Below are positions 31,126 to 56,680 of a DNA stretch of 64,000 nt, in pieces. A program made the translations under genes and the position numbers. The notes under the pieces are model-generated. The model saw only the letters and a list, made by a program, of their open reading frames with translations. It was not told the origin of the DNA and ran no database searches. The stretch is from Haloarcula taiwanensis (lineage in GTDB: Archaea > Halobacteriota > Halobacteria > Halobacteriales > Haloarculaceae): NCBI GenBank assembly GCA_002844335.1, contig CP019156.1, positions 62,001 through 126,000 on the forward strand, written 5' to 3'. Position 1 is the first letter of the stretch; every line of letters begins with the position of its first letter.

Positions 31126-31178
31126 GCAGGAAGGCGATTAGAGCTAATCTTCTAGATCAACAATCTGAATACCAAAAT

Positions 31179-32210
31179 TTACCAGTCAATATCGCCAACT
31201 TTCGATCGCCGGAGCTCGGAAAGGCTTATGTCGTGTTCTGGGTGTAGCCAGTACGGGTATCCATTGACGTTGAACTCACGACCGGTCGCTTGTTCGAGTA
31301 CCTCCTGAGCCAGAGCAGTGAACGAGTACTCTGCGCCGTTTTCCAGCCACTCCACGTTGTCACTCCGTCCCGTCTTCCCAGTAATCCGACCTCGCCAGAA
31401 GTCGTCCTCTGGGTCGTACTCACGCTCAGCATCGTCTGGTAGGCTTTCCTCGTCGAACAGGACGATGTCCCCCTCTTTGACGAGCCCTGCCTCAAGTAGA
31501 ACAGTGATCGCCCTTTCAGCGCGACTCGACGACCGACTCTGCTGACGTTCCTTCTGCCGTCGCTTGGCCATGTACTCCTCGGCCTCCGGGATGGGGAGAA
31601 CTTGCCGAGCACTCACGAACACCTCCTTGTCACGTTGGTGGACGTCCAGTTCGATGCAGGTGATATCCATCCCGTACTCACGTTCGAGCCATACGACTGG
31701 GGTTGTGATCTCTGGGCCGAAACTGCCCGCGGCGAGCAAAATCCGTGGCCGGTCATCCAGAACGAAATCTGCGTACCCGTCCTCTGTAGTGGCGATGTCC
31801 TCGCCAAGGAACTCAGCGAACCGACCGCCCACCTCTTCAGGCGTGAGAAGGTTATCTTCGTCACGGCGCTTGTTCCAAAATGCTCGGTAATCCTGCTGAA
31901 GCTCTTCGGCACTGATGGTTGAGCAGTAGCTCGCGTATTTGATTGCCTGGAGATCTGTCGTCTTGTCCGCGCTGTCTCGCTTCAGTTCGATTATCACGAG
32001 CTTCCCGTCGGGATCGAGTGCCAACACGTCGGGACGTTCAGCTGTTCGGTCGAACTTAGCGTACTGTGACGCGACTACGAGTAGGTCTTCGCCGAGTATC
32101 GAAGGTGTATCGATAATCCACTCCTCAATGTCTGACTCGGTTAGATCGAGAGCATCAAAACTGGTGGGATTGAGTGCGGTGATACCCTTGCCGTTAACAT
32201 GGTAGACCAT
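31179..32210 (-). CDS. NucS/DUF91-like nuclease with C-terminal RAMA-like domain
   Basis: A 343-residue protein. The N-terminal domain has the PD-(D/E)xK core RPDVLALDPDG then LVIIELKRD and QAIKYASY, as in NucS/DUF91-type nucleases. The last 90 residues (GRITGKTGRSDNVEW to EFNVNGYPYW) look like a RAMA domain, thought to read modified adenines or target DNA in restriction enzymes. It lies 26 bases downstream of the methylase gene on the same strand, so the two are likely co-transcribed. It is a good candidate for the cleaving subunit of the methylase system. Confidence 0.68.
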   Translation of the reverse strand: MVYHVNGKGITALNPTSFDALDLTESDIEEWIIDTPSILGEDLLVVASQYAKFDRTAERPDVLALDPDGKLVIIELKRDSADKTTDLQAIKYASYCSTISAEELQQDYRAFWNKRRDEDNLLTPEEVGGRFAEFLGEDIATTEDGYADFVLDDRPRILLAAGSFGPEITTPVVWLEREYGMDITCIELDVHQRDKEVFVSARQVLPIPEAEEYMAKRRQKERQQSRSSSRAERAITVLLEAGLVKEGDIVLFDEESLPDDAEREYDPEDDFWRGRITGKTGRSDNVEWLENGAEYSFTALAQEVLEQATGREFNVNGYPYWLHPEHDISLSELRRSKVGDIDW

Positions 32211-32236
32211 AGGTTGTCGATCGGTTGCTACCAGTC

Positions 32237-35200
32237 TTACTTGAAGGGGCCTTCCTCCGCTAATAGGTCAAACTTCTCAAAGACCATATCAAAGTACTCC
32301 TCGGTCATGATTCGGGGACTCGACACTCTGTGGAAGTTCTCAAGAACGAATTCTACATCTCGCCTTTCGAAACCGTAAGCGTGGAAAGCAGCAGCATCAA
32401 TTTCTGCTTGAATTTCATCTCGAGCGCTCTCTTGAGTTGCTGGGTCAATATCTCCCATCTCTTTTCTAACATCGGCAAACTCGTCGCCATATGCATTCAG
32501 TCTAGCCGACCGTTCTGCTATGTAATTGAACCAGTTATCCTCCTCGGACAATCGAGGGGCTTGGGACTCTTCAATTGCATTGACACTCATGGTCGTATCC
32601 AGCTTTGTCCGAACAATGTAGTCAAATGGAATGCTATTCAGAAGTCCCAGCACAGCAAAGAGTTCCTGATCTGTGAACTTCCGGACATACATATCATGTA
32701 GGTTTTCTTCGGACAGATGCTCTTCTTCTGGGTCTATCTTGTATGGACGGATAGTAGGTGCTTTGTTGTGGCAAACAGCTCCCCTTGGAAGGATTGCGGC
32801 GACCATGCTCCTCTCGTTGGTGTTGTTAGAAACGTCTCGGAACGCTATTCGATGAGCAGTACAGTCTAGGAGGACATCATCTTCTTTAAGTCCCTCACCC
32901 CTGTGTCGCTCCAGTAAATCATTTACAAACCCAATCTGGGAACCAGTTCCATCGAAGGCCTCATAGATAGCTTTCTTAAGCCGCTTTTCGTTCTTTCCTC
33001 GAACTCTGGATTTAGCACTAGGTGTGTCGTTTCGTGTCTCATCAACCCCCCAGTATTCGATGTCTGATAGATCGTCTAAGAATGTATTGTCATATTCGAA
33101 TAGCCAAAAATTCCCACCGCCATAAACTGGGTAGTCGCCTTCCTCAGGAGATTCTACAAAGTATTCCGAGTCACGCGTTCTATGGAGTTCCTCACCATAT
33201 ATGTCAATGTCCCACCTGTTAGATATTTCTTGACTGATAGGAGGATGGTTTACAAGTGTATTCATGACCGATAGTTCACGGCTACTCGAGATCTGGGGGA
33301 AAATCGTCGCTCGGGGAGAGTAGTTTCTCAGAACTTCTGCTGGGATACTCAACAGGCTATCTGTATCTTCAAGAACGGACAAGTCTCGTTGTAGGAACTT
33401 TGCTCGCAGTTGGTCTGTAGTGCCCGAGTTCTTGAATGAGACAATACCGAACTTGTACCTATCGTCTATGTCAAAGATGCCTTTATTTTCGAACCCTATA
33501 ATATAATCCAGCCGTGTTTCTGACAGCAAGTGCTCTCGAATGTCTCCAGAGGACATTCCAGTAAATAGCTTCCCAGGGAGTACAAACGTGGTATAGCCTT
33601 CGTCAGAGTTCAATTGGAATGCCCTCTCCAAAAAGAGCATTGAGAGATCTGTAGTCCCTTGTCCTCCAACTTCCGGACTTTGGAGTACATAATCCTGATT
33701 TTCACTGTAGTAAGCTCTGAGACGGTCGATATCTTCCTCATGTTCCTGCCATCCCTGAGCAATCTCCTCATCCTCGCACAGCTCTTCTATCCGGGTTTCT
33801 TTTTCATTTGCAGGGAGTGTCCGGAATCCTGGATCAAACTGGGTGAAGTATCGATTCCGGTCTGGTGTTAAAGCTCGCCATGGCGGATTTCCAATAAGAA
33901 TGTCAAATCCTCCAGACTCATACACAACCGCAAATTCAAGTACCCAATGGAATGGCTTGAATTGTTCCAGATTGTCCAAGTTTATCTCACTAATATCTGC
34001 GTCCTGAAACCTATCGAGGATTTTCTCGTTCAGCTTTTGCTTATGTTCTTCTATAAGCTTCTCTGCCCGTCTCCGGGCATTTGCTGCTTCACTGGATGAA
34101 GACGCACGACGATGGGCGTTCACAGCCTCAATAACATCTTCATACATATCCCGGACGCCTTCACCAGCGCCACCACCCCAGTTGGAGAGGGAAGCGTCTC
34201 CATCATCATTGATTTCTACGAGGTCGGTGAATCCCATCAAAGTGTTACCTTCTCGAATATTGAAGTCAATATTTGGTAGGGGTTCGACCTCATTAGGCTC
34301 ATCTTCTATGTCTGCCACCATCGACAACCACAGCCGAAGTTTGCAGATTTCAACAGCCCCTTCGTCGATATCCACTCCGTACAGGTTATTCAATATGATT
34401 GATTGCTTAGCGTACAGCGAGGTATTTCCTTGACCTCCTTCAATTCGTTCTAGTTCCTCTATCGTACGTTCCTCCAGTTCCCAAGCTTTGCCTTCGTCTC
34501 TGAGTTGTTGGAAGAACTCAATGCACTGCATATAGATGTCCAAAAGTACTTCCTGAGCGGCGAGGAGGAAGGCCCCACTCCCAACCGCTGGATCGAGGAC
34601 TCGAGCTTCTTTTAGGAAATCATGATATAGCGCCTCCACGTGCCGTGTCTCGACGTTTTCGGTCGGAACCTGCGTCGTGACCGCTCCTCCATCGGCTAGT
34701 GCCTCCACGCCGCTATCAGCATCCAAAGCTGGGAACCCAAAGATATCGTCAATTTTCTCGTACCCGGCACCAACTTCCTCGTTGAGCTGGTCAAGGAGGT
34801 ACGGATGAATCGTCCGCCGAGACATGAACCCGGTCATCTCCTCGGGAGTGTAGTACGCCCCCATCTCCTTCTGGTTGACTGTCTGCTCGAAAATGTGGCC
34901 GAGGATGGCTGGCGAAAGGTTCTTTGGATCGACGATGTCGAGCCGCTCGTCGACGTTCCAGTTCCAATCCGAGAGGAAGTCAAGGATATCACCGAACAGT
35001 TCGTTAGTGCGCTTGGTCGTATCCCCGAGACGAGCGTCCTCAAACTCCTCCTCAATTGGGTTCTTCGAGAACAAACCGCCGTTGAGGTACGGAAGTGCGC
35101 CGAACTCAGTGCTTTTCTTGTTCTCGGCGAGGTAGTCGAAGAATAGCGGCTCGTAGAACTCCTCGTAGACGTTTTCGCCCTCGTCTACGCGTTGTTTGTG

Positions 35201-35839
35201 GTGGTCGTGGAGGTAGTTCGGGTCGCGGTCAAGCAGGCGTTTCTCTTGGATGAAATAAAGGAAGATCATTCGGTCAAGCGTGACTTGCACGTAGCGCTGC
35301 TTGGCATCCCCGCGGTCGTCGGGGATACCGGCGACTTCCTGCACGAGATCGGTTCGAAGGGTCTCGAACTGCTGGTAGAACTCTTTGACGACTTGCTTAG
35401 TGTCGTAGAGGTCGTCGTAGATCGCTGCTGCCGAGCCGAACTCAAGGCTGTTGAGTTTCTGGAGGATGGTATTCTTCTCACCAGTCTCGCTGGTCATCTG
35501 CTCCTTCGTGAACGAGAGCTTCTGGTGCTTGATACGCCCGTGTTGTTGTCCATCGAGCGCCCGAATTCGGGTGAGGAAGGTGAACTCCTCGTAATCGTTG
35601 GTGGCGACGAGGTTAGTTCGTCGTCGTCGGTCATCAGGTTTGAAATCGGAGGCCGATTCTCCTGGGCCAGCTTCGACAAGGACGATGAACTCACGGTCGG
35701 TGAGCTGGAGGACGAGCTCGTTGTCGTCTCCAAAGTTGTCACGGACTTTCAAACCCCGCTTTTCGAAGGTAGAAGCGACATCAGATAGTGAATCCCAGCC
35801 AGCGATGTCCTTCGCTGTAATCTGCTGGAGTGTATCCAT
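32237..35839 (-). CDS. Eco57I-type adenine methyltransferase / type IIG-like RM protein
   Basis: A 1200-residue protein. A helical N-terminal 350 residues leads to the methylase core: SAM-binding motif DPAVGSGAF (near 420) and catalytic NPPW (FDILIGNPPW, near 650), for N6-adenine methylation. A target-recognition region of about 400 residues follows (YYSENQDYVLQSPE onward). Size and order match Eco57I/PglX-like enzymes. No clear PD-(D/E)xK is seen in the N-terminus, so cleavage may depend on the neighbouring nuclease and helicase. The 3' half is more AT-rich than the 5' half, which may mark replacement of the specificity region. It is transcribed from 35839 with the RAMA-nuclease after it. 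Confidence 0.82.
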   Translation of the reverse strand: MDTLQQITAKDIAGWDSLSDVASTFEKRGLKVRDNFGDDNELVLQLTDREFIVLVEAGPGESASDFKPDDRRRRTNLVATNDYEEFTFLTRIRALDGQQHGRIKHQKLSFTKEQMTSETGEKNTILQKLNSLEFGSAAAIYDDLYDTKQVVKEFYQQFETLRTDLVQEVAGIPDDRGDAKQRYVQVTLDRMIFLYFIQEKRLLDRDPNYLHDHHKQRVDEGENVYEEFYEPLFFDYLAENKKSTEFGALPYLNGGLFSKNPIEEEFEDARLGDTTKRTNELFGDILDFLSDWNWNVDERLDIVDPKNLSPAILGHIFEQTVNQKEMGAYYTPEEMTGFMSRRTIHPYLLDQLNEEVGAGYEKIDDIFGFPALDADSGVEALADGGAVTTQVPTENVETRHVEALYHDFLKEARVLDPAVGSGAFLLAAQEVLLDIYMQCIEFFQQLRDEGKAWELEERTIEELERIEGGQGNTSLYAKQSIILNNLYGVDIDEGAVEICKLRLWLSMVADIEDEPNEVEPLPNIDFNIREGNTLMGFTDLVEINDDGDASLSNWGGGAGEGVRDMYEDVIEAVNAHRRASSSSEAANARRRAEKLIEEHKQKLNEKILDRFQDADISEINLDNLEQFKPFHWVLEFAVVYESGGFDILIGNPPWRALTPDRNRYFTQFDPGFRTLPANEKETRIEELCEDEEIAQGWQEHEEDIDRLRAYYSENQDYVLQSPEVGGQGTTDLSMLFLERAFQLNSDEGYTTFVLPGKLFTGMSSGDIREHLLSETRLDYIIGFENKGIFDIDDRYKFGIVSFKNSGTTDQLRAKFLQRDLSVLEDTDSLLSIPAEVLRNYSPRATIFPQISSSRELSVMNTLVNHPPISQEISNRWDIDIYGEELHRTRDSEYFVESPEEGDYPVYGGGNFWLFEYDNTFLDDLSDIEYWGVDETRNDTPSAKSRVRGKNEKRLKKAIYEAFDGTGSQIGFVNDLLERHRGEGLKEDDVLLDCTAHRIAFRDVSNNTNERSMVAAILPRGAVCHNKAPTIRPYKIDPEEEHLSEENLHDMYVRKFTDQELFAVLGLLNSIPFDYIVRTKLDTTMSVNAIEESQAPRLSEEDNWFNYIAERSARLNAYGDEFADVRKEMGDIDPATQESARDEIQAEIDAAAFHAYGFERRDVEFVLENFHRVSSPRIMTEEYFDMVFEKFDLLAEEGPFK

Positions 35840-36891: not shown

Positions 36892-37140
36892 TCTATTGCT
36901 GTAGTTCCGCTTCGGATAGAGTTCGGCCTCGGTGAACACCTTGCTTGTGGCCTCCTCACCGGATGGGTTCAGGTAGGAGTGTATGGAGGGAAAGCCCCCT
37001 GTACATTCCAAGATGTCTATCCTCTTGCTGAAAACGAAGGCGACCATACATCAAAACCGCAACGGAGGTTACGAACACTTCTACGACACGTTGGAGTATC
37101 AGCTGGATTTCCCTCTGTATTGACCGTGAGCCAGTCCAAA
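36892..37140. other. Gap without a confident gene
   Basis: Minus-strand codons between 37047 and 36895 look weakly protein-like (YLNPSGEEATSKVF) but the frame then runs antisense into tumA. It may be a relic; nothing is recognised. Confidence 0.3.
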
Positions 37141-37168
37141 ATTTTGTGTTCCTCTGGCGGGTGAGAGG
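37141..37168 (+). promoter_or_regulatory. Plasmid leader element (class 1)
   Basis: Box ATTTTGTG, then CCTCT-GGCGGGTG-AGAGG, with the ATG directly after the stem. Reference form of the leader family. Confidence 0.65.
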
Positions 37169-38203
37169 ATGACAGACCTCACACTCGGTACGTTCGGAGA
37201 CGGAGACAGCGCCGACAACGACCTCGGTCCCGATGCTGCAAGCATCGCCCGATGCGCGACGACGTGTCGCGCTCCTGACCGCGACGACAGCAGTTGGGCA
37301 GCTCTGGACGAGGACTGGGGGCTGACAACGCAGCGGCCAGAGTCGTCGATCAACACGTCGGCTGGTCGAGCAACCAAACAGCAAACGCGCTGGGTCATGG
37401 ACGGAGATGTCGGGGCATATGTTGAGCAGTACGCGACTGGTGTCCTACAAATTCCAGCTACGTACGGCGAGTTCAGTTCAGTCGACACCCGGGTCACATT
37501 CATCGACGGACTCGCTGACAGCTACGGGTACGGCATTGACGCCCAGGCTCTCGAAAAGGCATTGCGGGTCCTCACTGGCGGCGGACGATATAATGCGTCG
37601 AGATACACGGCGATTCCGTGTGGGAAACAGCCGTGGATTCTGACGGGACCAGAAGGGACGCTCCTGTGCAGCTGTATGCCCGTCGAACGACCGGAGAACC
37701 CATACACGAGGGAGCTTCGGACGCCAGAGACGACCCTGCAGATCGAGGAGCAAAACCAAACAGTTCGTACGGGAGCCGCTGAGTTTGCCCACCTGCTATC
37801 CGACGCTCTCGGTGTCGATATCGAGAGAGTAGAGTACACAACAGTGCGAGGGAAAACACATCACTCGTTCGTCGGGGCAGAAGATGAATTCAAAATCGCG
37901 GCGAGCGACTTGGCACAACTGCATGGGTTGACGAATGATCCATCCGTCATCCAGGGGACAGTCAGCCGTGGAGTCCAACCCCCCAACGGTGGCGATCCAA
38001 TCTCGGTTGAGTGGGACGGGCCGGATCATCCGGTTGGATATCTCGACGAGGGTGATGTAGTCGCCGGCTACGAGTTTACGTGGGAACAGCACGAGGAGTC
38101 GCTGGAAGACGTTGCGGTGGTACGAGAGTATCGGATAACACAGAGCTACTCGCGGTGGACAGTTGACTACCACACCCATCGCCTCGCGTCGGTCGTCCCC
38201 TAA
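37169..38203 (+). CDS. Hypothetical plasmid protein sharing a domain with the 47957 gene
   Basis: A 344-residue acidic protein starting at the ATG that abuts the leader hairpin. The segment ALEKALRVLTGGGRYNASRY, then QPWILTGPEGTLLC (near residues 130-170), aligns by eye with the end of the 47957 product (AIATLAKHPAYQPERF, then EPVYIEGPDAGIVI). The C-terminal half is beta-rich. A YTTVRGKTHHSFVG segment has paired His. No catalytic motif is recognised. It is the first gene in the window with the leader element and stands alone. Confidence 0.55.
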   Translation: MTDLTLGTFGDGDSADNDLGPDAASIARCATTCRAPDRDDSSWAALDEDWGLTTQRPESSINTSAGRATKQQTRWVMDGDVGAYVEQYATGVLQIPATYGEFSSVDTRVTFIDGLADSYGYGIDAQALEKALRVLTGGGRYNASRYTAIPCGKQPWILTGPEGTLLCSCMPVERPENPYTRELRTPETTLQIEEQNQTVRTGAAEFAHLLSDALGVDIERVEYTTVRGKTHHSFVGAEDEFKIAASDLAQLHGLTNDPSVIQGTVSRGVQPPNGGDPISVEWDGPDHPVGYLDEGDVVAGYEFTWEQHEESLEDVAVVREYRITQSYSRWTVDYHTHRLASVVP

Positions 38204-41238: not shown

Positions 41239-42117
41239 ATGTCACAGTCTACAACGGCCAGTAGCAACGAGACAGCAACCACAGACGCTGAGGAGAACGC
41301 GTCAGAGACACCGATGGATGGGGAGACACCAACGGAAGCTGACACTGCAGACTTGCTAACGCTTGGTGCTCCACAGTATCTCCGAATCAGCGGCGAGGTC
41401 CAGTTGTTTGAGCGGATCTTCTCGGCGGCTGGCACGGTCACAGACAAGACACGACTCGGGATTGCAGAGTCAGGAATCGCCATCAGGGCAGCCGATCAGC
41501 AGGGACACGCGATGGTCGACTTGCGTGTCTCTGGGAGTTCTTTCAGCACCTTCGATGCAGGGAGGGGAACGTTGGGAGTGGACGTCGGACGAGTTCGAGA
41601 TGCACTCTCGATCGGCGATGCAGGCGACCTTGCACAGTTCAAAGTTGATGCAGCGAATAGCACACTAGAAGTCAATATCGACGGTATAACGCGCACCATC
41701 GAGCTTGACCCGCTTGAATCGCTCCGCTACCCTGTCGAAATGCCGGATATCGACATCCCGGCAACCGTCCATCTGAGTCCAGACGACATCTCGCTCGGTC
41801 TCGACGCAGCAGATATGCTTTCCGACCGGTTTGACCTTACCGTTGACTCCGATGCCGGAGAAATGCAGTTCGCCGCAGACGGTGACACTGACAGTATGGT
41901 TTATACGTGGGAAGACACTGATCTCATCGCCTTCGAGCCTGCAGATATCGAAGTAAAACTTGACTCGTCGCTCGTCAAATCGGCGAATGCTGGCCTTCCA
42001 GACGGCACGAGTCGGGTTCTCCATATCGGAGACTCAGTACCGCTCGTGCTGAAATCCGAGTTCCCTGACGCCAATGGAGCGATGCAATTCGTGATCGCAC
42101 CGAAGCTCCCGAACTGA
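41239..42117 (+). CDS. pcn: PCNA sliding clamp paralogue
   Basis: A 292-residue clamp that should form a trimeric ring and tether polymerase and other factors. The core is clear: LRISGEVQLFERIFSAAGTV, then LGIAESGIAIRAADQQGHAM, VDLRVSGSSFSTFD, ESLRYPVEMPDI, and the C-terminal strand QFVIAPKLPN. It differs from the chromosomal type by an acidic, Thr/Glu-rich extension of about 45 residues at the N-terminus. With orc1 and mcm in the same window, this suggests the element carries part of its own replication machinery. It bears the shared plasmid leader. Confidence 0.85.
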   Translation: MSQSTTASSNETATTDAEENASETPMDGETPTEADTADLLTLGAPQYLRISGEVQLFERIFSAAGTVTDKTRLGIAESGIAIRAADQQGHAMVDLRVSGSSFSTFDAGRGTLGVDVGRVRDALSIGDAGDLAQFKVDAANSTLEVNIDGITRTIELDPLESLRYPVEMPDIDIPATVHLSPDDISLGLDAADMLSDRFDLTVDSDAGEMQFAADGDTDSMVYTWEDTDLIAFEPADIEVKLDSSLVKSANAGLPDGTSRVLHIGDSVPLVLKSEFPDANGAMQFVIAPKLPN

Positions 42118-43277: not shown

Positions 43278-44240
43278 ATGTCAACGATACAGTCAGAGAC
43301 TCCAGAGCAGTCGTCCAGCCAGCAGACCACTTGCACCTTCGACGATTCGGACTCCCGGGACGAGGAGATGCGCGACCAACTCGATGCGTGGGTCGAGGAC
43401 CTTGCCGACCTCACCGATGAAGCGCAGGCCAGTGAGAGGTTCCAGCAGTGGCTCGATGTGCAGAGCAAGTTCCACGATTACTCGGCTCGGAACACACTAC
43501 TCATCAAGCTCCAGTGTCCCGAGGCAACGCGAGTCGCCGGCTACAATACGTGGCAAGACGAGTTCGACCGTTACGTCCAGAAAGGCGAAGACGCTATCTG
43601 GATCTGGGCTCCCATCATCACGAAGAAGTGCCCCGAATGCGGCAACTCACCGTCGTATCACGAGAACACAGACTGTGAGTACGATGAAACGGACCCCGAA
43701 CAATGGCGTCGAGGGCTAGTCGGGTTCCGGCCAACATCGGTGTTCGATATCTCCCAGACTGAGGGCGAGCCGCTTCCAGAGTTAGAGACAGAAGCTCACG
43801 GTGATCCGGATGGACTTGTCGAGGACCTGATTGACGCGACCGACGAAATCGGCGTCGATGCGCGAATCGTCGCCTCGGAGGAATGGGAGCATGGGTCTGC
43901 ACGGGGCGTCTGCCAGCGCCGAAGTGTAACGACCACGAATCCGATGGTCGAAGCGGTTGACCGGGAGAATCGGGCCGCCCTCGCGAGTACACTTATTCAC
44001 GAGTTTGCCCATGCGGATCTTCACTTCGATGTTGAGGATGAGACAGAGCGCTCGAAACGCGAGGTCGAAGCCGAGGCAGTTGCTTACGTGGTCAGTCGTC
44101 ACTTCGGGCTGGACCCCGACAACTCGGCGTTCTATCTCGCGGCGTGGGACGGCGACGCACCAGAGACGTTACGGGACCGGCTGGACCGAATCTCGAAGAC
44201 GGCTGCGGATTTGATCGACGCCGTCGAAGGCGACAGCTGA
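43278..44240 (+). CDS. ardC: ArdC-like antirestriction protein
   Basis: A 320-residue protein. The N-terminal ssDNA-binding domain shows the ArdC signature: FHDYSARNTLLIKLQCPEAT, VAGYNTWQDEFDRYVQKGED. It is interrupted by a zinc-finger-like insert (CPECGNSP to CEYDE). The C-terminal half is a zincin-type metallopeptidase-like domain with HEFAH at about 245 and a downstream EAEAVAYVVSRHFGL carrying the likely third ligand. ArdC proteins protect incoming plasmid DNA from restriction, which suits an element with a transfer operon. The start follows the two-hairpin leader. Confidence 0.72.
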   Translation: MSTIQSETPEQSSSQQTTCTFDDSDSRDEEMRDQLDAWVEDLADLTDEAQASERFQQWLDVQSKFHDYSARNTLLIKLQCPEATRVAGYNTWQDEFDRYVQKGEDAIWIWAPIITKKCPECGNSPSYHENTDCEYDETDPEQWRRGLVGFRPTSVFDISQTEGEPLPELETEAHGDPDGLVEDLIDATDEIGVDARIVASEEWEHGSARGVCQRRSVTTTNPMVEAVDRENRAALASTLIHEFAHADLHFDVEDETERSKREVEAEAVAYVVSRHFGLDPDNSAFYLAAWDGDAPETLRDRLDRISKTAADLIDAVEGDS

Positions 44241-44280
44241 GCAGTCAGTCGTGCTTTTCCAGCCGTGCTTGAGAGCAGTG

Positions 44281-44315
44281 TTTTGTGACTCCCCTGGTGG
44301 TCGAGGGAGTCGAAT
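44281..44315 (+). promoter_or_regulatory. Plasmid leader element (class 1)
   Basis: Box TTTTGTG; arms CTCCCCT and AGGGAG (one bulged C) around GGTGGTCG, extending to GACTCCC/GGGAGTC. The ATG follows at 44316. Confidence 0.6.
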
Positions 44316-45068
44316 ATGCGTTCCACAGCAGCGTCAGGTGGTAGTCCTGTCGGACAGTTCTTGAGTGTCTTAGGAGATTTGCGTGACCAGATCGGAGGGC
44401 CGTACTACCTCGGGGATGTCAACGGCCGGTTGGACTGGCCCGACCGAGGAGTGTACTTTTTCTTCTCGCCAGCAAGCGACCTTCGGGCAACGACAGCGGT
44501 CGACTGGCGACTCTCGCGGATCGGCACCGTCGGCATCAGTACCGGTTCGTCGAACACGCTCTGGAACCGACTCCGGCAGCACCGAGGCAATGTTCGAGGG
44601 AAGTACGCCGGCGGTGGCAACCATCGTGGCTCAATCTTCCGTCTCCACGTCGGACGGGCACTGATCGAGAAGCACGGCTGGCACGACGAGTTTCCCCACT
44701 GGGGCGAACCGAATCCCGACGCTGAGACGACCGCTGTTCGCGAGCAGGAACATGAACTCGAACAGCGCGTGTCGGAGTACATCCGGGATCTGCCGTTTCT
44801 GTGGGTTGACGTTCCGGGCGACCCCGGACCCGAGTGTGACAGAGCCGAGATTGAGTCAAATACCATCGCAATGGTGTCGAGGTATCGTCGATCCGCAGGG
44901 CCATCGGACCTCGATTGGCTTGGATACCACTCGCCGAAGTCTGAGGTGTATCAGTCTGGACTGTGGAACGTGCGACACGTCTCCGACTCGTTCGATCCGT
45001 CGGTCGTGGACCAGTTATCAGAGTATATTTCGTCAACGGAAGCGCTGGACCACCAGTCGCGGATCTGA
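44316..45068 (+). CDS. GIY-YIG-like hypothetical protein
   Basis: A 250-residue protein. RGVYFFFSP, then RIGTVGISTGSSNTLWNRLR and GGGNHRGSIFRLHVGRAL resemble a divergent GIY-YIG fold: strand GVY, second strand with a VGI in place of YIG, helix with Arg. A later EIESNTIAMVSRYR helix could supply the Glu and Asn. The nuclease fold is likely; activity is uncertain. It overlaps the convergent 45033 gene by 36 bases, so their transcripts are antisense at the 3' ends. Confidence 0.55.
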   Translation: MRSTAASGGSPVGQFLSVLGDLRDQIGGPYYLGDVNGRLDWPDRGVYFFFSPASDLRATTAVDWRLSRIGTVGISTGSSNTLWNRLRQHRGNVRGKYAGGGNHRGSIFRLHVGRALIEKHGWHDEFPHWGEPNPDAETTAVREQEHELEQRVSEYIRDLPFLWVDVPGDPGPECDRAEIESNTIAMVSRYRRSAGPSDLDWLGYHSPKSEVYQSGLWNVRHVSDSFDPSVVDQLSEYISSTEALDHQSRI

Positions 45069-45932
45069 GGGCAGGTGGTTCCGCAGCGAGAACTCAGTAC
45101 GCTCGGCTAGGAGTCCGTAGGCAATCCCAGCCAGCGGCGCAACCACGGGAATCCACGCCAGTACTGAGATGAACGGCTCCACCGAGGAGGCCTGCCAGAT
45201 TCCAGCGTACATCAAAATCATGTAAACGGATGCAGCAGCTGTCGACAGTCGCCATCGGACTCCCGCCACGAGCCCGGCCAGTGGGAGGCCATAGAACGCT
45301 ACATCACCCGCAAGCGAGGGCAAGGGAATGGCGACAGCAATCGCACAGAGATATGTCAGGAACATCGCTGTGCCTCCTATGGACGCGACGAATAGCCGTC
45401 GCCATCCAGCACGCTCGTCGGTGTCGTCCTGGACGGACTGCTCGTCGCTTTCCTCGGTCGTCGTGGTGACTGCAAGAGGGCTCCTCGACTGTGTCTCGAC
45501 GTGGCTGGCTTCCAGCCGGGAGACACCACGAGACTGCCCGTTGCCCTCCGTTTCGCCCTCGACTTCCTCGGTGATCGGGACCTCGCTCTGCAATGCAAGC
45601 ACTCTGTGGGAGTCCGTTTCGGGACTGCTTGCTGGCTCTTGTTTCGCTGACTCTGGCAGGTTCAGGCGTCCCGTCTGCGTGATGTCTTCTTCGCAGGCCG
45701 AACACACTGTCAGGAGATTCGTGGTTTTATTTGTCCCGCCGTTCTCGGCGGGGATTCGTCGCACGACTTCCAAATCCTCCGCAGGGAACCGCGTCCCGCA
45801 GTTGGTGCAAGTGTTGTTGTCCAACTGCTTCCGGAAGACGATCCGGTACGCCCAGTCTGGTGGGTAGTCGCCCCGGTAGCTGTCAGGGTCGTCGTACTGC
45901 GATTCGATACCTTCCTTCATTCTGCTCGACAC
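45033..45932 (-). CDS. HNH-like zinc domain fused to a membrane domain
   Basis: A 299-residue protein. Residues 35-85 form an HNH-type zinc module with CTNCGTRF and VCSACEE and the family-like centre RRIPAENGGTNKTTNLLTVC. The first catalytic His expected before the Pro-Gly-rich loop is replaced (VVRRIP), so it may bind rather than cut. A polar linker of 90 residues leads to four hydrophobic segments (FVASIGGTAMFLTYLCAIAV onward). It is the only minus-strand gene in this part of the array and lacks the leader. A membrane-tethered nucleic-acid-binding protein is an unusual combination. Confidence 0.6.
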   Translation of the reverse strand: MSSRMKEGIESQYDDPDSYRGDYPPDWAYRIVFRKQLDNNTCTNCGTRFPAEDLEVVRRIPAENGGTNKTTNLLTVCSACEEDITQTGRLNLPESAKQEPASSPETDSHRVLALQSEVPITEEVEGETEGNGQSRGVSRLEASHVETQSRSPLAVTTTTEESDEQSVQDDTDERAGWRRLFVASIGGTAMFLTYLCAIAVAIPLPSLAGDVAFYGLPLAGLVAGVRWRLSTAAASVYMILMYAGIWQASSVEPFISVLAWIPVVAPLAGIAYGLLAERTEFSLRNHLPSDPRLVVQRFR

Positions 45933-45965
45933 TTCTTCCCGTCTCCGTATTTAAGCCGCCGGGTC

Positions 45966-46020
45966 GTTTTGTGCCGCGCCTGCCAGCTGGGCACGCCGGT
46001 CGGTGCGCTCGGTGTTATTC
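45966..46020 (+). promoter_or_regulatory. Plasmid leader element, divergent copy
   Basis: Box GTTTTGTG, then GTGCC/GGCAC as a long-loop hairpin and a CGCCG/CGGTG repeat downstream. The ATG at 46021 is at class 2 distance. The structure is less regular than other copies. Confidence 0.4.
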
Positions 46021-46962
46021 ATGTCTTCTGAGGCGCGACACTCTTGGTCAGCGGCGGCTGTCGGCGATGCACAGCAGGCTGAGTACATCGGGTTCCTTCA
46101 CCGAGAACCGTTCGTAATCGATGCTTACCGGCTTGGATTCGCCGTCGGCGTTCGCGAGGACTACTCGTATCAATCCAAACTGCGGAACGTCGACGTCCCG
46201 ATTGAGATTCTAGACAACGACTTTCGGAATCCAGATTTGGACCGGTACATTGAGCGCTTCGAGCAGTACGAGCCATCGGTCGGGATGCTTGGCGACGCAT
46301 ACGACCGACAGGAGGCGCGTCGGTACAACCAAGCCGCACGGGAGCTGAAACGGAAGTTTCCGGGCATGGAGGCTATCATCGTCCCGAAGTGCCGCGACGC
46401 GATCGACGTGATCGACGACGACATCATCTTGGGCTATCCGATGGGCTACTCCGACCAGACCGCCGACGAGTACACGAATATTGTGGACTGGCGGGGACGG
46501 CGAGTGCATCTGCTGGGGGCAAGTCCGACGAAGCAGTATCCGGTGATCGAGGAGCTAACACAGCCGCGTGTGACCGGTGAAGAACCAGCCGATATCGTTG
46601 GTGTCGACTGGAACGGGGTTCATCTGGCGGCGCTTCACGGCGAGTATTTCTCACCACACGGCTACGGGAGTGCGGACCACCTCTCGATCCGGGAGACGGT
46701 TCGAGAGAGCTTGCGACACATCCGGTCATACTGGAAATCGCGGGGGGTGTGGCCCACCGTGGAGAAAGACCGGTCCCCGCTAACAGCGGAACCGATGGAC
46801 CCTGTCTGGGCTGCTGACGGGTCGAGAGCGACTGTGAGTGGCCTTGAGGATGCGATTGTCGTCGAGTACGAGAACGGACAGACGCTCGCGTACCGGAGCC
46901 AACACGAGCGAGACAGAGTGGAATACCGGGCAGGACTCACTCCCAGTGAGGTCTACGGCTAG
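46021..46962 (+). CDS. TGT-like (DUF6610-type) protein, possible DNA base exchange
   Basis: A 313-residue protein. Segments SVGMLGDAYDRQEARRYNQA, AIIVPKCRDAIDVIDDDI, ILGYPMGYSDQTADEY and RRVHLLGASPTKQYPVIEEL resemble the TIM-barrel of the tRNA-guanine transglycosylase superfamily, as in DpdA-type enzymes that put 7-deazaguanines into DNA. The C-terminal VGVDWNGVHLAAL to HIRSYWKSRG is family-like. My recollection is that related haloarchaeal proteins are named DUF6610. The next gene is a DUF6884-like protein, which supports a base-modification pathway. Catalytic Asp residues cannot be assigned with certainty by eye. Confidence 0.5.
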   Translation: MSSEARHSWSAAAVGDAQQAEYIGFLHREPFVIDAYRLGFAVGVREDYSYQSKLRNVDVPIEILDNDFRNPDLDRYIERFEQYEPSVGMLGDAYDRQEARRYNQAARELKRKFPGMEAIIVPKCRDAIDVIDDDIILGYPMGYSDQTADEYTNIVDWRGRRVHLLGASPTKQYPVIEELTQPRVTGEEPADIVGVDWNGVHLAALHGEYFSPHGYGSADHLSIRETVRESLRHIRSYWKSRGVWPTVEKDRSPLTAEPMDPVWAADGSRATVSGLEDAIVVEYENGQTLAYRSQHERDRVEYRAGLTPSEVYG

Positions 46963-46986
46963 AGCCGAACGTGTCGTCACAGAGAG

Positions 46987-47021
46987 TTTTGTGACTCCCT
47001 TTCTGGGTGAGGGAGATACAG
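46987..47021 (+). promoter_or_regulatory. Plasmid leader element (class 1)
   Basis: Box GTTTTGTG; CTCCCT-TTCTGGGTG-AGGGAG, a perfect 6-bp stem; six bases to the ATG. Confidence 0.6.
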
Positions 47022-47855
47022 ATGACGACCACACAGACTGAGCGGACTCGTGGCCGCTTCGTACTGATTGGATGCGGCGATGCGAAAACCGACCAGCCAG
47101 TTGCAGTTCGCGACCTCTACACTTCGTCGTACTTCGCGGTCAAGCGATCATATGCTGAGGCGGCTGTCCAGTGGGCTCGAACCGCTGACCGACGAGCGAA
47201 CACCTGGGCGGTTCTCTCTGCAGAACACGGGATCTTGATGCCCCGGCAGACGGTCGCTCCGTACGATACGCCCATTGAGGACCTGCGCGGCGAACCCATC
47301 GAGGGAGAAGCCAATTATCGGCTGCCGTCAGGGGAACAGGTCGAAACCCGCCTTGACCGCTGGGCGCTCCGTGTCCACTCGTCTCTCGGTGATTGGCTCC
47401 GGCGGCCTTATGCTGCCGATCAGCAGGAGTCCCCCTGCCGGGAGTTGGTCGTTCTGGCCGGCAGCGACTACGTCGACGCGCTGCGTGAGCGCGACATCTT
47501 CGACGGCCGACCAACTGCGATTCGGACTGGGCGAGAGACCTACACTGCTCTTCCCCCGAAAGCGACAGTTCGCTTCCCCTTCCAGGAGCGGGACTTCGAC
47601 GGGATGTTCGACCAGATGGGCTGGCTTTCAGACCGGGCCGAAGAACTCTCGTCAGCAGCGGCTCCAGCCCGACGATCAGAACTCTCGGCCTTTGACGGGG
47701 GCCTCGAGCGCGACTCTGCTACGTGGCAAACAGGCCACAGTGGCGTCGACGTCGAGGGGACTGAGCAGGTTGGGCTGGATGCATTCGAGAACGTCCCCGA
47801 ACGGTTCCTTGCCACGAGACAAACGAGTCTTGCGACCGACGGCGGGGTTGAGTAG
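47022..47855 (+). CDS. DUF6884-like protein, partner of the TGT-like gene
   Basis: A 277-residue protein from ATG 47022. The core FVLIGCGDAKTDQPVAVRDL, YTSSYFAVKRSYAE, WAVLSAEHGILMP and a downstream APYD are the hallmarks of DUF6884-like proteins, which I recall near queuosine/archaeosine-type and DNA-modification genes. The Cys in IGCGDAK and the SAEHG His are candidate functional residues. The C-terminal third is polar and less conserved-looking. It follows the TGT-like gene by 59 bases but has its own leader. Confidence 0.58.
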   Translation: MTTTQTERTRGRFVLIGCGDAKTDQPVAVRDLYTSSYFAVKRSYAEAAVQWARTADRRANTWAVLSAEHGILMPRQTVAPYDTPIEDLRGEPIEGEANYRLPSGEQVETRLDRWALRVHSSLGDWLRRPYAADQQESPCRELVVLAGSDYVDALRERDIFDGRPTAIRTGRETYTALPPKATVRFPFQERDFDGMFDQMGWLSDRAEELSSAAAPARRSELSAFDGGLERDSATWQTGHSGVDVEGTEQVGLDAFENVPERFLATRQTSLATDGGVE

Positions 47856-47880
47856 CACGCAAACACACGATATCGACCTT

Positions 47881-47913
47881 GTTAACCAACACTCATCGCT
47901 TTTGTTGGTTAAC
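47881..47913. repeat. TAACCAACA inverted repeat, copy C
   Basis: GTTAACCAACA and TGTTGGTTAAC, 11-bp perfect arms around 11 bases. It lies between a stop codon and the next leader, as do copies A and B. Confidence 0.65.
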
Positions 47914-47928
47914 ACGCTGAGCCTGACG

Positions 47929-47956
47929 ATTTTCTGTTCCTCTGGCGGGTGCGAGG
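47929..47956 (+). promoter_or_regulatory. Plasmid leader element (class 1)
   Basis: Box ATTTTCTG; CCTC/GAGG stem around TGGCGGGTGC (the fifth pair is lost: T versus C). The ATG is directly after the stem. Confidence 0.6.
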
Positions 47957-48421
47957 ATGACAGAACCAACCTCCAAAGCCCGTGATGGATCAGCCACGAA
48001 CAGCAGCGAATTGCCCGTCGACGAGCAACCAATTCCAGTCGCCAAGCCACCATCGCCATTTGTCTGGCAAGATGAAGTGGTCCCCGCGCTCGATGGGTCT
48101 CTCACTGTGTGTCCAGAGTCTGCCCGGTATCCGATAGCTGCAAAGGTCGTCGACGGTGCGGAGTATCTTGTCGCAACAGCCCGAGAAACGTTCACTCCCC
48201 CAGCTGACTATCAGTTCCAGTCGTGGGACGTACTCCAGTCTGGTCGTCTTGCCCTCCGGTCAGGCGACCCACAGTTCCCACCAGCCGACGTGAGCCGTGC
48301 AATCGCAACGCTTGCGAAGCATCCTGCGTACCAGCCTGAGCGGTTCACGATCTTCTACCGAGGGTGCGAACCAGTGTATATCGAAGGTCCAGACGCCGGC
48401 ATTGTGATCACCCCCTGGTAA
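47957..48421 (+). CDS. Hypothetical protein related to the 37169 product
   Basis: A 154-residue protein. After a Pro-rich disordered start it has a beta-rich domain (VVPALDGSLTVCPESARYPI) ending in YQPERFTIFYRGCEPVYIEG, which matches a segment of the 37169 product. It is much shorter than that protein, so this may be the minimal domain. It lies between two modification-type genes. No function assigned. Confidence 0.5.
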   Translation: MTEPTSKARDGSATNSSELPVDEQPIPVAKPPSPFVWQDEVVPALDGSLTVCPESARYPIAAKVVDGAEYLVATARETFTPPADYQFQSWDVLQSGRLALRSGDPQFPPADVSRAIATLAKHPAYQPERFTIFYRGCEPVYIEGPDAGIVITPW

Positions 48422-48431
48422 CTCGATAGCA

Positions 48432-48459
48432 GTTTTGTGGTCCTCTGGCGGGTGAGAGG
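48432..48459 (+). promoter_or_regulatory. Plasmid leader element (class 1)
   Basis: Box GTTTTGTG; CCTCT-GGCGGGTG-AGAGG; the ATG is directly after. Stem and loop are identical to the 37141 copy. Confidence 0.65.
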
Positions 48460-49227
48460 ATGTCCACACACTCAGTGTCGACGCAAGCACAGTCGTTCCA
48501 GCATCGCCCGCCAGCAGACACAGGGGAGTGTTCCTGTCCGATTCACGCCAACGGTGACCCGTTCACGGCACCCCTCGGGATTCGATTTGCCGATCATGTC
48601 GCCGTCGAGCCAATCGACAGAGAGACCGCAGCCGCTGTCTACGAGGCGCATCACTCATACATGGAGTCGCTGCCGTCGGTCAATCTCGCTCATCACGGGC
48701 TGTACTTTCAGGACTCGCTAGTCGGGGCCATCACGTACCGCTACCCGCTCATCTCAAAGAAGCGAATCCGGTACGGCGTCGACGGCCAGCTCTGTCCCGA
48801 GCCCGTCGAGATCGACAGTCTTCCAGCGGAGATTCGGGCGACTGCCCGGCAGGTGCTTCCGTTGACGGACACACCAGTCGTTGACAGCGAAGTGGTATCC
48901 GGCGATTCGCTCGTCGAGGCCGCGCGGATTTGCATGGGCGTTCGAATGCCAAACCTCGCGTCGGCAGCGCTAGCCCGCTCACAAGAGCACTTCTTGCAGG
49001 CTGACGACCGTGACACTCGCTTCTTGTTGACGTGGGTGCGCTCGGACTACGACGGCGCGATGGTTCGGGCGCTGCAAGACAAGGGCTGGACCTGTACGGG
49101 CTACCGAGAACCGGGACAGGCAAGCAACCGCGAGGACAAGCCGATTCGTGAGCGCTACAAGTGGCGCTTTCTCTGTCCTGTCGAAACTGCTCGCGAGCAG
49201 TCAACACTTGCACGGTGGTCTCAGTGA
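48460..49227 (+). CDS. Mom-like/GNAT acyltransferase, possible adenine hypermodification
   Basis: A 255-residue protein. AAAVYEAHHSYMESLPSVNL, LYFQDSLVGAITYRYPL and, later, ARICMGVRMPNLASAALARS, FLLTWVRSDYDGAMVRALQD, KGWTCTGYREPGQ fit a GNAT-fold family that I recall annotated as Mom-like, after the phage Mu protein that modifies adenine to resist restriction. A Cys-containing CSCPIHANG segment opens the protein. It overlaps the following zinc-finger gene by GTGA, so they are made together. The specific substrate is inference. Confidence 0.55.
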   Translation: MSTHSVSTQAQSFQHRPPADTGECSCPIHANGDPFTAPLGIRFADHVAVEPIDRETAAAVYEAHHSYMESLPSVNLAHHGLYFQDSLVGAITYRYPLISKKRIRYGVDGQLCPEPVEIDSLPAEIRATARQVLPLTDTPVVDSEVVSGDSLVEAARICMGVRMPNLASAALARSQEHFLQADDRDTRFLLTWVRSDYDGAMVRALQDKGWTCTGYREPGQASNREDKPIRERYKWRFLCPVETAREQSTLARWSQ

Positions 49228-49751
49228 CCGACGTCCAGCCCGAGGCAACGGCTGAGTGCTGTCGGTTCTGTGGAGACAAGGCTGATATCTCCGGCGAAGC
49301 GTACACCTATGTCCGGTGGCCCGACGAGGTCGACCGAGAAGACGGCGTGTTCCGGTTCACCATTTGTCGGGAGTGTGCGCTTCAGGGCCGCGACAACGTC
49401 GAGCAGGCCGCTTCGCTCTTCCACGAGGCAGATCGAGACCATCTGCTTACCTGCGATGTCTGCGGGGCTGTTGGCTGCCGGTCTGCCAGTTCTCGTCGTC
49501 CAGCAGCGGAGACGTATCGACTCGCGAGCGTTATCTCCTGGTCAGTGAGTATCAACGGCTTCGACGGGGCAACGCACTCTTGCAGTGAGTGCAGTCCTAT
49601 CCTGCCGGTCGACTGTGTGAAACGCCTTGACCGGAGATACGACGATGAAGTGCCGCGTCTCGTCGAGCCCCCGTTTGACTCAGTTGCGAAGACAGCAGGC
49701 GATGCTCCGGCAGACAGTACACAGGTCGAGATCGGCGGGTGGATTGGGTAG
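49224..49751 (+). CDS. Multi-zinc-finger protein coupled to the Mom-like gene
   Basis: A 175-residue protein. GTG 49224 is the start: it shares GTGA with the preceding stop, and the codons before it belong to another frame. Cys pairs CCRFCGD, CRECALQG, CDVCGAVGC and CSECSP could form two zinc sites. The C-terminal tail is polar. Likely a DNA- or protein-binding accessory to the acyltransferase; family not recognised. Confidence 0.55.
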   Translation: MTDVQPEATAECCRFCGDKADISGEAYTYVRWPDEVDREDGVFRFTICRECALQGRDNVEQAASLFHEADRDHLLTCDVCGAVGCRSASSRRPAAETYRLASVISWSVSINGFDGATHSCSECSPILPVDCVKRLDRRYDDEVPRLVEPPFDSVAKTAGDAPADSTQVEIGGWIG

Positions 49752-49883: not shown

Positions 49884-50939
49884 ATGTCTTCACCCCTGCC
49901 GATCGTGTATCTATACACGTCTGAATCGGGGGGTATCAGCGGTTCAATAAGATTCCAGAAATTGGTTTTCCTTGGTCAGCAAGAATCAGGTCTCCCAGAG
50001 AAATATCAATTCGTTCCCTACAAATTTGGCCCATATTCATATCAGTTGGAGCGGGATATTGAAAATTGGATTAATAAGGGCCGTATCCGCAGAAGTAGAA
50101 CAATAAATAGGGTAGGAAATTACAGAATCGATTATTCACTTACGCCAGACGGAATCAAACTTGCAAAAGCCCTTCTAAACAAAGAGGGTTTTAATAGGGT
50201 ATTCGAAGAAGCAGATGAAATCACCTCGGAACACGGAGACAAATCACTTTCAGATCTAATTAGATACGTATATGGGAATTATCCAGAGTATACGGACGAA
50301 TCCACTCTGGATATAGAACGGATATTTGACGAATCCACCACTTCACAATTTGCTGAACCGAATGAATCCCAAGTAGGCCCCTTCGATCAGATTAAGAAGA
50401 TAAGTGAAGAGGAGGGCAAAGTAGCAGGAATTGAGAAGGATTTTACTAGACAGTCATTAGAGATTGGATCAAAATTTCGTGCGGTCCTTGAGAGAATTAG
50501 TGGTGAGTCTCTATCTATATACTGGAGGTCGTCAGCGCCTTCATTCGACTCATTCAAAGAGGTTGTGCAGAGCGATACAGCAGTTCCAGAAGATGCATTG
50601 AGTGAAATGCGAACCCGTGAATCGGATGAGTGGATTCGGGGAAAGTGTAGTGAATTACTGGAAATAGCCAACTCTGATACGTGCCTGTTCTTCAGAACGG
50701 AAGCCAATAATAGCCAATATACCGTCACTTGGGAGGCTGGTAGTGGGGACAGGGGTGATGAGATCACAATATATATGACTGAAAGTCAAGCTGATTATGG
50801 ACAGCTTCGGGCAGCCTTGGTTCAGTATGCTACCGCAACCGCATTAGATGTGGACATAGACCCGATAAGCAGAATAGACACTACCGATGATCTGATAAGC
50901 GAATCGTTCCGCCAAACCGCGAAGCTCGCAATAAGCTAA
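49884..50939 (+). CDS. SocA/DUF4065-like N-terminal domain protein
   Basis: A 351-residue protein in an AT-rich segment unlike its neighbours. The N-terminus (SIRFQKLVFLGQQESG, KYQFVPYKFGPYSYQLERDI) matches the pattern of YwgA/DUF4065-type (Panacea-like) domains found in toxin-antitoxin and defence genes. A charged central part and a C-terminal alpha/beta domain (YTVTWEAGSGDRGDEITIYM) follow, the latter unknown. It stands first of three genes with small spacing. No leader element precedes it. A defence role is plausible. Confidence 0.5.
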   Translation: MSSPLPIVYLYTSESGGISGSIRFQKLVFLGQQESGLPEKYQFVPYKFGPYSYQLERDIENWINKGRIRRSRTINRVGNYRIDYSLTPDGIKLAKALLNKEGFNRVFEEADEITSEHGDKSLSDLIRYVYGNYPEYTDESTLDIERIFDESTTSQFAEPNESQVGPFDQIKKISEEEGKVAGIEKDFTRQSLEIGSKFRAVLERISGESLSIYWRSSAPSFDSFKEVVQSDTAVPEDALSEMRTRESDEWIRGKCSELLEIANSDTCLFFRTEANNSQYTVTWEAGSGDRGDEITIYMTESQADYGQLRAALVQYATATALDVDIDPISRIDTTDDLISESFRQTAKLAIS

Positions 50940-52021: not shown

Positions 52022-52049
52022 ATTTTGTGTGCCTCTGGCGGGTGAGAGG
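52022..52049 (+). promoter_or_regulatory. Plasmid leader element (class 1)
   Basis: Box ATTTTGTG; CCTCT-GGCGGGTG-AGAGG; ATG directly after. An AGTAAATAAAAAC run lies about 35 bases upstream as a possible TATA region. Confidence 0.65.
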
Positions 52050-52352
52050 ATGTCTCGAAATATGTCCTACCGTCGTTCGGAAGACCTGTCGCAGCGAACC
52101 GTCCCAAAGTTCGTCGAGTCCATCGCGACGACTGTTCGGGGGCAGCCCGACAGCGCTGATGTTGAAGCGGTTGTCCTCCGTATGGTGGCCCGGCGATCAG
52201 ACAGTATCGACCTCCCGGACGTACTCGAACTTCGCTCGCTCCTGGACGTCGACGGCGAGCAGGCAGATACGCTAGAGGAACAGGTCACAACCATCATCAG
52301 CGCCATCGAAGTCGACCTCGCCGGTTGGGACCGCCGGGAGGTCGCTGCATGA
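52050..52352 (+). CDS. Hypothetical 100-residue protein, first of a coupled set
   Basis: From ATG 52050 (MSRNMSYRRSEDL). Helical and acidic (SADVEAVVLRMVARRSDSID). Its first six codons are the same as those of the TFB gene at 55769, together with the leader. ATGA overlap with the next gene. Unknown. Confidence 0.5.
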   Translation: MSRNMSYRRSEDLSQRTVPKFVESIATTVRGQPDSADVEAVVLRMVARRSDSIDLPDVLELRSLLDVDGEQADTLEEQVTTIISAIEVDLAGWDRREVAA

Positions 52353-55768: not shown

Positions 55769-56680
55769 ATGTCTCGAAATATGTCTTCACAAACTGTCCA
55801 GACGGCGTTGTCTGCAGCTATGCCGGGCTGTCCCGAGTGTGGCGGCACGCTCGACAGCAGCGGCCGAGAAACGCACTGTATAGATTGTGGCCTAGTGACC
55901 GATCAAGACCAGATCGACCGCAGGCCAGCATGGCGGACGTACGACAAGGAGGAACAGCAGCGCACGGGCGCACCCCGGACGGCCACTCGGCATGATCGAG
56001 GCCTGTCGACGAACATCGGGAGCGTCGATAGTGCAGATATCTCTCCGAGACGGCGTCGACGGCTTGCTCGCCAGCGGCGGCTCCATGGCCGGTCGAAGTT
56101 CACCAGCAAGCGCGACCGGAATCTCGCTCACGGGCTTGGCGAAATCCGACGCATCGCGAGTGCGCTGTCTGAGAGCAAGGCGGTGAAAGAGCAGGCATCT
56201 ACGTTCTTCCGGGAAGCCCAGAACAAGGACCTCCTAATCGGGCGGTCGATTGAGGGCGGTGCAGCGGCCGCTGTGTACGCTGCCTGCCGATGCAATGGCC
56301 TCGTGACGATGGAGACGGTAGCCGACGTTGCACGGTGTTCCGACTCACATATCTGGAACTGCTACCGGACGTTCCTGACAGAACTTGACCTCCCGATTCC
56401 GGTGTCGCTCCCGGTGGACTGGGTGGCGCGGATTTGTTCGGACCTTCCATTCAACGTTGCGCCGGATATTCGTCAGCGGGCACTCGAACTCGCAGAACAG
56501 GCAACCGAGTCAACAGCGGTCAACGGACGACCAGACGGTGTCGCAGCCGGCGCTCTGTACCTCGCCGGGAAAGAGTCAGACATCCGGCTCACGCAAGCGA
56601 CGATCTGCGAGCCGCTGGATGTGCATATTACGACGGCCCGGCAGTGGTTCCAAGAGATCGAGGAGCATATCGTTGAATGA
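55769..56680 (+). CDS. tfb: Transcription initiation factor TFB
   Basis: A 303-residue archaeal TFIIB. An N-terminal zinc ribbon (CPECGGTLDSSGRETHCIDCG), a B-finger/linker with WRTYDKEE, then two cyclin repeats (AVYAACRCNGLVTMETVADV; ALYLAGKESDIRLTQATICE) ending in a DNA-recognition helix. Haloarchaea carry several TFBs, and an element-borne copy could redirect host polymerase to the element's promoters, including those in this array. Start chosen at the leader-coupled ATG 55769; ATG 55781 is possible. Confidence 0.88.
   Translation: MSRNMSSQTVQTALSAAMPGCPECGGTLDSSGRETHCIDCGLVTDQDQIDRRPAWRTYDKEEQQRTGAPRTATRHDRGLSTNIGSVDSADISPRRRRRLARQRRLHGRSKFTSKRDRNLAHGLGEIRRIASALSESKAVKEQASTFFREAQNKDLLIGRSIEGGAAAAVYAACRCNGLVTMETVADVARCSDSHIWNCYRTFLTELDLPIPVSLPVDWVARICSDLPFNVAPDIRQRALELAEQATESTAVNGRPDGVAAGALYLAGKESDIRLTQATICEPLDVHITTARQWFQEIEEHIVE

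Follow-up and report, generated by a model that had tools for sequence, protein, structure and literature searches.

A candidate DNA-masking gene block on a conjugative plasmid of Haloarcula taiwanensis

Introduction

Do the conjugative plasmids of haloarchaea chemically disguise their own DNA? The question is raised by a block of genes at positions 43278-49751 of a 64,000-nucleotide stretch of Haloarcula taiwanensis DNA (contig CP019156.1), here called the window, which represents positions 62001-126000 of a 129,893-bp plasmid contig. The element is a conjugative plasmid of Haloarcula type (approximately 130 kb) in a genome of 3.72 Mb on four contigs, and its closest relatives are Haloarcula plasmids, one of which is typed with an MPF_T mating apparatus. 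An earlier, sequence-only reading of the block had singled out genes for an ArdC-like antirestriction protein, a tRNA-guanine transglycosylase (TGT)-like protein of family DUF6610, a DUF6884-like protein, and a Mom-like protein coupled to a zinc-finger protein, and had suggested that entering DNA carries two kinds of protection.

On balance, we lean toward the view that the region serves to mask plasmid DNA, with DUF6610 as a DNA-guanine transglycosylase, a Mom-like protein that adds a second mark, and ArdC acting on the entering strand. DUF6610 would replace guanines of the plasmid DNA with a 7-deazaguanine (preQ0 being the likeliest) drawn from the archaeosine pathway of the host; the Mom-like protein would add another mark to a base, in analogy to phage Mu Mom, which acts on adenine; and ArdC would coat and protect the single-stranded DNA entering in conjugation. 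For ArdC of bacterial plasmids, such protection of the incoming strand has already been proposed (PMC5512222). We infer three things: plasmid DNA as the substrate of these enzymes, the identity of the base made, and a resulting block to restriction.

Results

The DUF6610 protein

The reading turns on one gene:

46021..46962 (alternative GTG start 46003), + strand: DUF6610, TGT-fold protein, predicted DNA-guanine transglycosylase (PF20314, 1e-61)

An AlphaFold2 (AF2) model of the protein was built from 48 sequences, with a predicted local distance difference test (pLDDT) value of 79. When the model was searched with VIA-align, the best 50 matches were all TGTs (Z 12.9-13.4, approximately 3.5 Å over approximately 218 residues). 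TGT entries fill this list to its end, and the margin over the next barrel lies beyond it. DUF6610 is thereby predicted to fold as a TGT-type TIM barrel, in line with its earlier description as TGT-like.

At the sequence level, DUF6610 matches gene products of haloviruses, namely HVTV-1 gene 69 (28% identity, tblastn E 1e-9), HCTV-5 gene 68, and HCTV-1 gene 64. Profile-profile comparison with HVTV-1 gene 69 gives Prob 99.7 and E 1e-25, and HCTV-1 gene 64 gives the best structural match among the viral models of BFVD. Gene 69 lies in the queF-queC-queD-queE-folE operon (preQ0/preQ1) of HVTV-1, 3 bp behind folE, and the DUF6610 homologue likewise comes after folE in HCTV-5 and HCTV-1. Approximately 30% of the guanines in HVTV-1 DNA are dPreQ1, yet the authors of that study did not find DpdA in the virus and proposed an undetected enzyme or a host enzyme (PMC6884629). 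A transglycosylase role would link DUF6610 to the very step that this 2019 study failed to find.

Homologues extend to Hafunaviridae and to gene 1 of mycobacteriophage Knocker, where the DUF6610-like part is fused to a ParB-like part. The Knocker gene (1-1317 of L234), annotated as ParB-like, holds a DUF6610-like TGT domain; the next genes are folE and one of DpdA type, an arrangement that suggests two transglycosylase-like proteins in one phage.

Across plasmid, halovirus, and mycobacteriophage members, 13 residues are invariant, including D65, P122, G138, H163, L165, G166, and D196. In the model, D65 follows barrel strand 3 and D196 lies at strand 8 (DSSP). These are presumably the places where TGTs hold their catalytic aspartates and base-binding loops, residue by residue equivalence being our assumption, and the model thus puts the two aspartates D65 and D196 at predicted TGT catalytic positions.

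The Mom-like protein and the zinc-finger gene

A second modification gene, with its leader and its downstream partner, lies at the right end of the block:

48432..48462, + strand: conserved 30-bp leader TTTTGTGGTCCTCTGGCGGGTGAGAGGATG, ending in the mom start codon (core motif search)
48460..49227, + strand: Mom-like DNA modification protein, predicted (PF25680; hhalign to phage Moms)
49224..49751, + strand: zinc-finger protein (CxxC motifs; GTGA overlap with mom)

The Mom-like protein matches PF25680 at 1.7e-4, below the Pfam cut-off, and the same model matches all nine family members searched, weakly (best 3.4e-5). A profile of ten members aligned by hhalign with ten phage Moms reaches Prob 95 and E 4e-8 over 131 columns, and none of 100 column-shuffled profiles attains the real score (maximum 20.0 versus 61.8). 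Judged by these profiles, the protein is a true Mom relative, as the sequence-only reading had supposed. Positions shared with phage Moms are H65, Y67, G89, E153, R156, G199, A204, and G214, among which H65 and Y67 keep the HxY signature and E153 and R156 the ExxR signature.

The zinc-finger gene encodes approximately 175 amino acids with several CxxC motifs, and family scans of the Pfam and phrog type gave no match for it. Its GTGA overlap with mom bears out the proposed coupling of the two genes, which is probably translational. The zinc-finger protein was considered as a homologue of Com and rejected, given its size and its position downstream of mom.

As a separate observation, the haloarchaeal tailed virus HRTV-4 has a Mom homologue in its gene 19 (L166, 2456-2998), which is annotated as hypothetical.

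Composition and conservation of the block

The genes of the block run in the order ArdC-like, GIY-YIG-like, HNH (opposite strand), DUF6610, DUF6884, orphan, Mom-like, and zinc finger. The features left of mom, other than DUF6610, are:

43278..44240, + strand: ArdC-like antirestriction protein, ArdC-N single-stranded DNA-binding domain and HExxH zincin domain (PF08401, phrog_7245, HEFAH)
44316..45068, + strand: GIY-YIG-like protein, PADLOC candidate defence component PDC-M57B (PADLOC 3.5e-64; weak Pfam GIY-YIG match, 0.26)
45033..45932, - strand: HNH-type protein between the GIY-YIG-like and DUF6610 genes (PF14279 1.9e-5; many HNH phrogs)
46995..47021, + strand: hairpin-forming leader CTCCCTTTCTGGGTGAGGGAG, just 5' of the DUF6884 ATG (RNA fold)
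47022..47855, + strand: DUF6884, YaaA-like, PADLOC candidate defence component PDC-M57A (PF21818 1.6e-18; PADLOC 4.7e-13)
47957..48421, + strand: conserved orphan gene, two copies (a paralogue pair) in relatives (dN/dS 0.12-0.29)

All five genes that the sequence-only reading named are present where it placed them, each on the + strand, although its gene list overlooked the GIY-YIG-like and HNH genes. The transfer operon that it reported is also borne out; further left in the window are genes for a VirD4-type coupling protein, a relaxase-like protein, a VirB4-like ATPase, and a type IV secretion system (T4SS) pilin. For the orphan gene, scans of the Pfam and phrog type returned no family match. 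The HNH-type protein has apparent membrane segments, read from its sequence, and among ten block genes PADLOC detected no Dpd proteins except a marginal DpdF match (0.0037) on this HNH gene.

Synteny was compared across twenty relatives, most of the same DUF6610 subtype. Allowing for gaps and insertions, approximately 18 elements share the order U37169, PCNA-like, ArdC, GIY-YIG-like, HNH, DUF6610, DUF6884, orphan(s), Mom, zinc finger, followed by other genes of the backbone. The ratio of nonsynonymous to synonymous substitution rates (dN/dS) between relatives is 0.05-0.15 for most block genes and 0.17-0.36 for the zinc-finger gene, values that indicate purifying selection. Because of this shared order and these low ratios, the co-occurrence of the block genes is not due to chance, and the earlier impression of a genuine cluster holds.

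Neighbours were then counted at 80 named haloarchaeal loci centred on DUF6610. ArdC is present at 73 of them, a Mom-like gene at 10, and DUF6884 and the GIY-YIG-like gene at 7 each. In 146 related genomes there are 39 Mom-like sites, 25 of which are at most 12 kb from a DUF6610 gene, and two separate DUF6610 subfamilies are represented among these. ArdC is therefore the constant partner of DUF6610, and Mom is a frequent but optional addition.

Counts of this kind also bear on the suggestion that unrelated modules have simply piled up in a variable plasmid region, so that ArdC with DUF6610, PDC-M57, and Mom with its zinc-finger gene each work alone and share no joint strategy of protection. Most loci do have ArdC and DUF6610 without Mom; Mom occurs with DUF6884 in the absence of DUF6610 (L217-L220) and also without either (L221-L226); and in relatives the block is interrupted by foreign genes (those for Orc1, for GAF and FIST proteins, and for another GNAT). 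The proximity of Mom-like sites to DUF6610 in two subfamilies and the gene order kept in so many elements speak the other way. We regard such an assembly as a serious but somewhat doubtful account, and it is partly compatible with the masking of plasmid DNA that we favor.

DUF6610 is found in 53 of the 146 genomes of the family and in 96 plasmid records, all haloarchaeal among the matches listed, and among 294 genomes sampled more widely from the phylum it is restricted to the same order. Scans of IMG/VR for relatives of DUF6610 and of the Mom-like protein found none.

ArdC, DUF6884, and a candidate defence pair

The ArdC-like gene is real as an antirestriction gene of this type, with both expected domains: PF08401 matches at 9.3e-6, above the cut-off, phrog_7245 at 4.1e-13, and the HEFAH zincin motif stands at residues 241-245. 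A shared order of DUF6610, small protein, and metalloprotease in plasmids (with ArdC) and haloviruses (with an SprT-like protein) was considered, but we make no claim of it, as ArdC and the SprT-like protein match around HExxH alone.

DUF6884 fared otherwise. The protein carries CGDAK and LSAEHG, which correspond to the CxxxK and LSAxxG motifs described by the authors of the Pfam family, who relate it to YaaA and DNA-lesion binding (PMC11701544). PADLOC recognizes DUF6884 and the GIY-YIG-like protein as the two components of PDC-M57, and the two genes are adjacent at several haloarchaeal chromosomal places without DUF6610. For these reasons we do not count DUF6884, which the sequence-only reading had listed in a possible hypermodification and antirestriction cluster, as a DNA modification gene; it may belong to a nuclease or defence module. 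A resemblance of DUF6884 to the ArcS core (CSxxKPY, TSPLG, YD versus CGDAK, LSAEHG, PYD) was co-linear over approximately 109 columns, but 1 of 100 shuffles equalled it and a TGT control scored as well, and the relationship is not claimed.

The same pair invites a different account of the whole region, that of a restriction-type defence island in which the GIY-YIG-like nuclease and DUF6884 form PDC-M57, DUF6610 and/or the Mom-like protein provide self-protection, and the block acts to restrict competitors, not to hide the plasmid from its host. Recognition of both proteins by PADLOC and the adjacency of their genes on several chromosomes would fit, as would the Eco57I-type restriction-modification protein and the helicase-PLD protein on the same plasmid. 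Since each PDC-M57 gene is found at only 7 of the 80 DUF6610 loci, and the chromosomal pair does without DUF6610, nuclease and modification are not tied to each other. PDC-M57 is, moreover, a computational prediction, and we found no paper that mentions it. We consider a defence island unlikely.

Several neighbors are recorded for completeness. A diverged PCNA-like sliding clamp (window 41239-42117) is encoded by the plasmid as a member of the conserved block. A helicase with a PLD domain, a NucS-like protein, and the Eco57I-type protein lie at window 25996-35839. A low-GC stretch immediately past the block contains a gene that matches PADLOC PDC-M19A (window 49884-50939), and a weak match to the Imm49 immunity protein, below the Pfam cut-off, covers window 61063-61857.

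Leaders and regulation

The leader of mom belongs to a set. Four plasmid genes, mom included, are preceded by a 30-bp leader, TTTTSTGTTCCTCTGGCGGGTGAGAGGATG, that ends in their start codons (window 37140-37171, 47929-47959, 48432-48462, and 52022-52052). Its core motif was counted 4 times in the 64 kb, where 0.02 occurrences would be expected. The leader is kept before mom in 15 distinct plasmid sequences, and other plasmids also have it before these genes although their DNA further upstream diverges. Its folding energy is not unusual relative to shuffles; the hairpin before DUF6884 reaches -13.1 kcal/mol, with 7 of 200 shuffles folding as well. The leader may be a promoter or operator, given that the plasmid has its own transcription factor B (TFB), or a translational hairpin, for which Com-Mom of phage Mu is a precedent (PMC6483171). 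The TFB gene (window 55769-56680; TFIIB repeats) is conserved in relatives, and because its start in relative L041 bears a variant of the leader, TFB might drive a plasmid-specific promoter.

Discussion

Several observations weigh against the masking of plasmid DNA by these proteins. Foldseek alone scores aldolase level with TGT for the DUF6610 model; profile comparison with 16 TGTs from the archaeal phylum and with DpdA of the phage 9g type gives no significant similarity, shuffles scoring equally against the latter; and the Pfam TGT model gives no significant match. The plasmid block lacks preQ0 genes. DUF6610 copies are split or interrupted in several relatives (G007, G021, G031), so the gene can be lost. 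The Mom-like protein lacks two residues of Mu-type Moms, the SFAD aspartate and the YQA tyrosine, so that its chemistry may differ from theirs, and its AF2 model (pLDDT 44) is too low to read a GNAT fold.

The main contig of the host encodes TgtA, an ArcS-like paralogue, and QueC, and preQ0 should therefore be available. A sequence-level proof that DUF6610 is a TGT was dropped, and the filing of DUF6610 as DpdA1 (phage 9g type) was rejected, as its hhalign comparison with characterized DpdA is not significant; a sequence search of solved structures with DUF6610, the Mom-like protein, and DUF6884 returned nothing credible. The TGT claim rests on predicted structure, active-site positions, and the halovirus operon.

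The failed profiles, together with the nearness of other TIM barrels in Foldseek score, could also mean that DUF6610 is a TIM-barrel enzyme for another substrate (e.g., RNA or a small molecule) rather than a DNA transglycosylase. We find this quite improbable, however, when VIA-align returns TGT alone among its best 50 matches, the TGT-type aspartates are invariant, gene 69 lies inside the preQ0 operon of HVTV-1, Knocker gene 1 stands beside folE and a DpdA-type gene, and the host already has TgtA and the ArcS paralogue for tRNA.

If the role of DUF6610 as a DNA transglycosylase is true, a family without assigned function on approximately 100 sequenced haloarchaeal plasmids gains a candidate role, and 7-deazaguanines are predicted in these plasmids. 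A bolder proposal, which we offer tentatively, is that haloarchaeal conjugative plasmids carry hypermodified DNA, in which DUF6610, a plasmid branch of the halovirus enzyme, draws on host preQ0, and the Mom-like protein of Haloarcula plasmids marks adenine or the inserted deazaguanine to give a doubly marked genome. Hypermodified bases would then serve transfer in conjugative elements as well as in viruses, which would be relevant to the barriers that transformation and transfer face in halophilic archaea. The block suggests that plasmids, and not viruses alone, may disguise their own DNA chemically.

Comparison with known systems

Both protein components of PADLOC PDC-M57 are recognized in the plasmid block, but there the two genes are separated by the HNH and DUF6610 genes, and PDC-M57 is a computational candidate only. 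With ArdC of plasmid pSa, the ArdC-like protein shares the ArdC-N and zincin domains and a place on a conjugative element; it differs in being archaeal and in its constant association with a TGT-like gene, of which we found no report.

Com-Mom of phage Mu has in common with the plasmid the Mom homology over 131 columns, HxY and ExxR, a zinc-finger gene that overlaps mom, and a hairpin-capable leader 5' of mom. Com, however, is a small CCCC finger encoded upstream, whereas the plasmid zinc-finger gene is larger, lies downstream, and is not a Com homologue. The plasmid Mom-like protein also departs from Mu Mom in its two missing residues, an insert of approximately 45 residues, and its home on an archaeal plasmid.

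DpdA of phage 9g and the bacterial Dpd system share with DUF6610 the TGT fold (predicted here) and a proposed base exchange in DNA. The motif order runs in parallel, with LDSG, LGG, VHGFG, and CDSSSW in 9g DpdA against LDND, LGY, VHLLG, and VDWNG in DUF6610, but sequence similarity is not detectable, and the Dpd partners (dpdB-dpdK) were not found in the block apart from the marginal DpdF match.

The closest parallel is the HVTV-1 gene 69 family, whose homologous TGT-like barrel, with the same 13 invariant residues, here resides on a Haloarcula element. The virus gene belongs to a full preQ0/preQ1 operon, whereas the plasmid gene stands beside ArdC and would use host preQ0, and the C-terminal regions differ. 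Cui et al. (2023, NAR) reportedly named an archaeal-virus subfamily DpdA4, which is probably the family of gene 69; if so, the plasmid branch is the new part.

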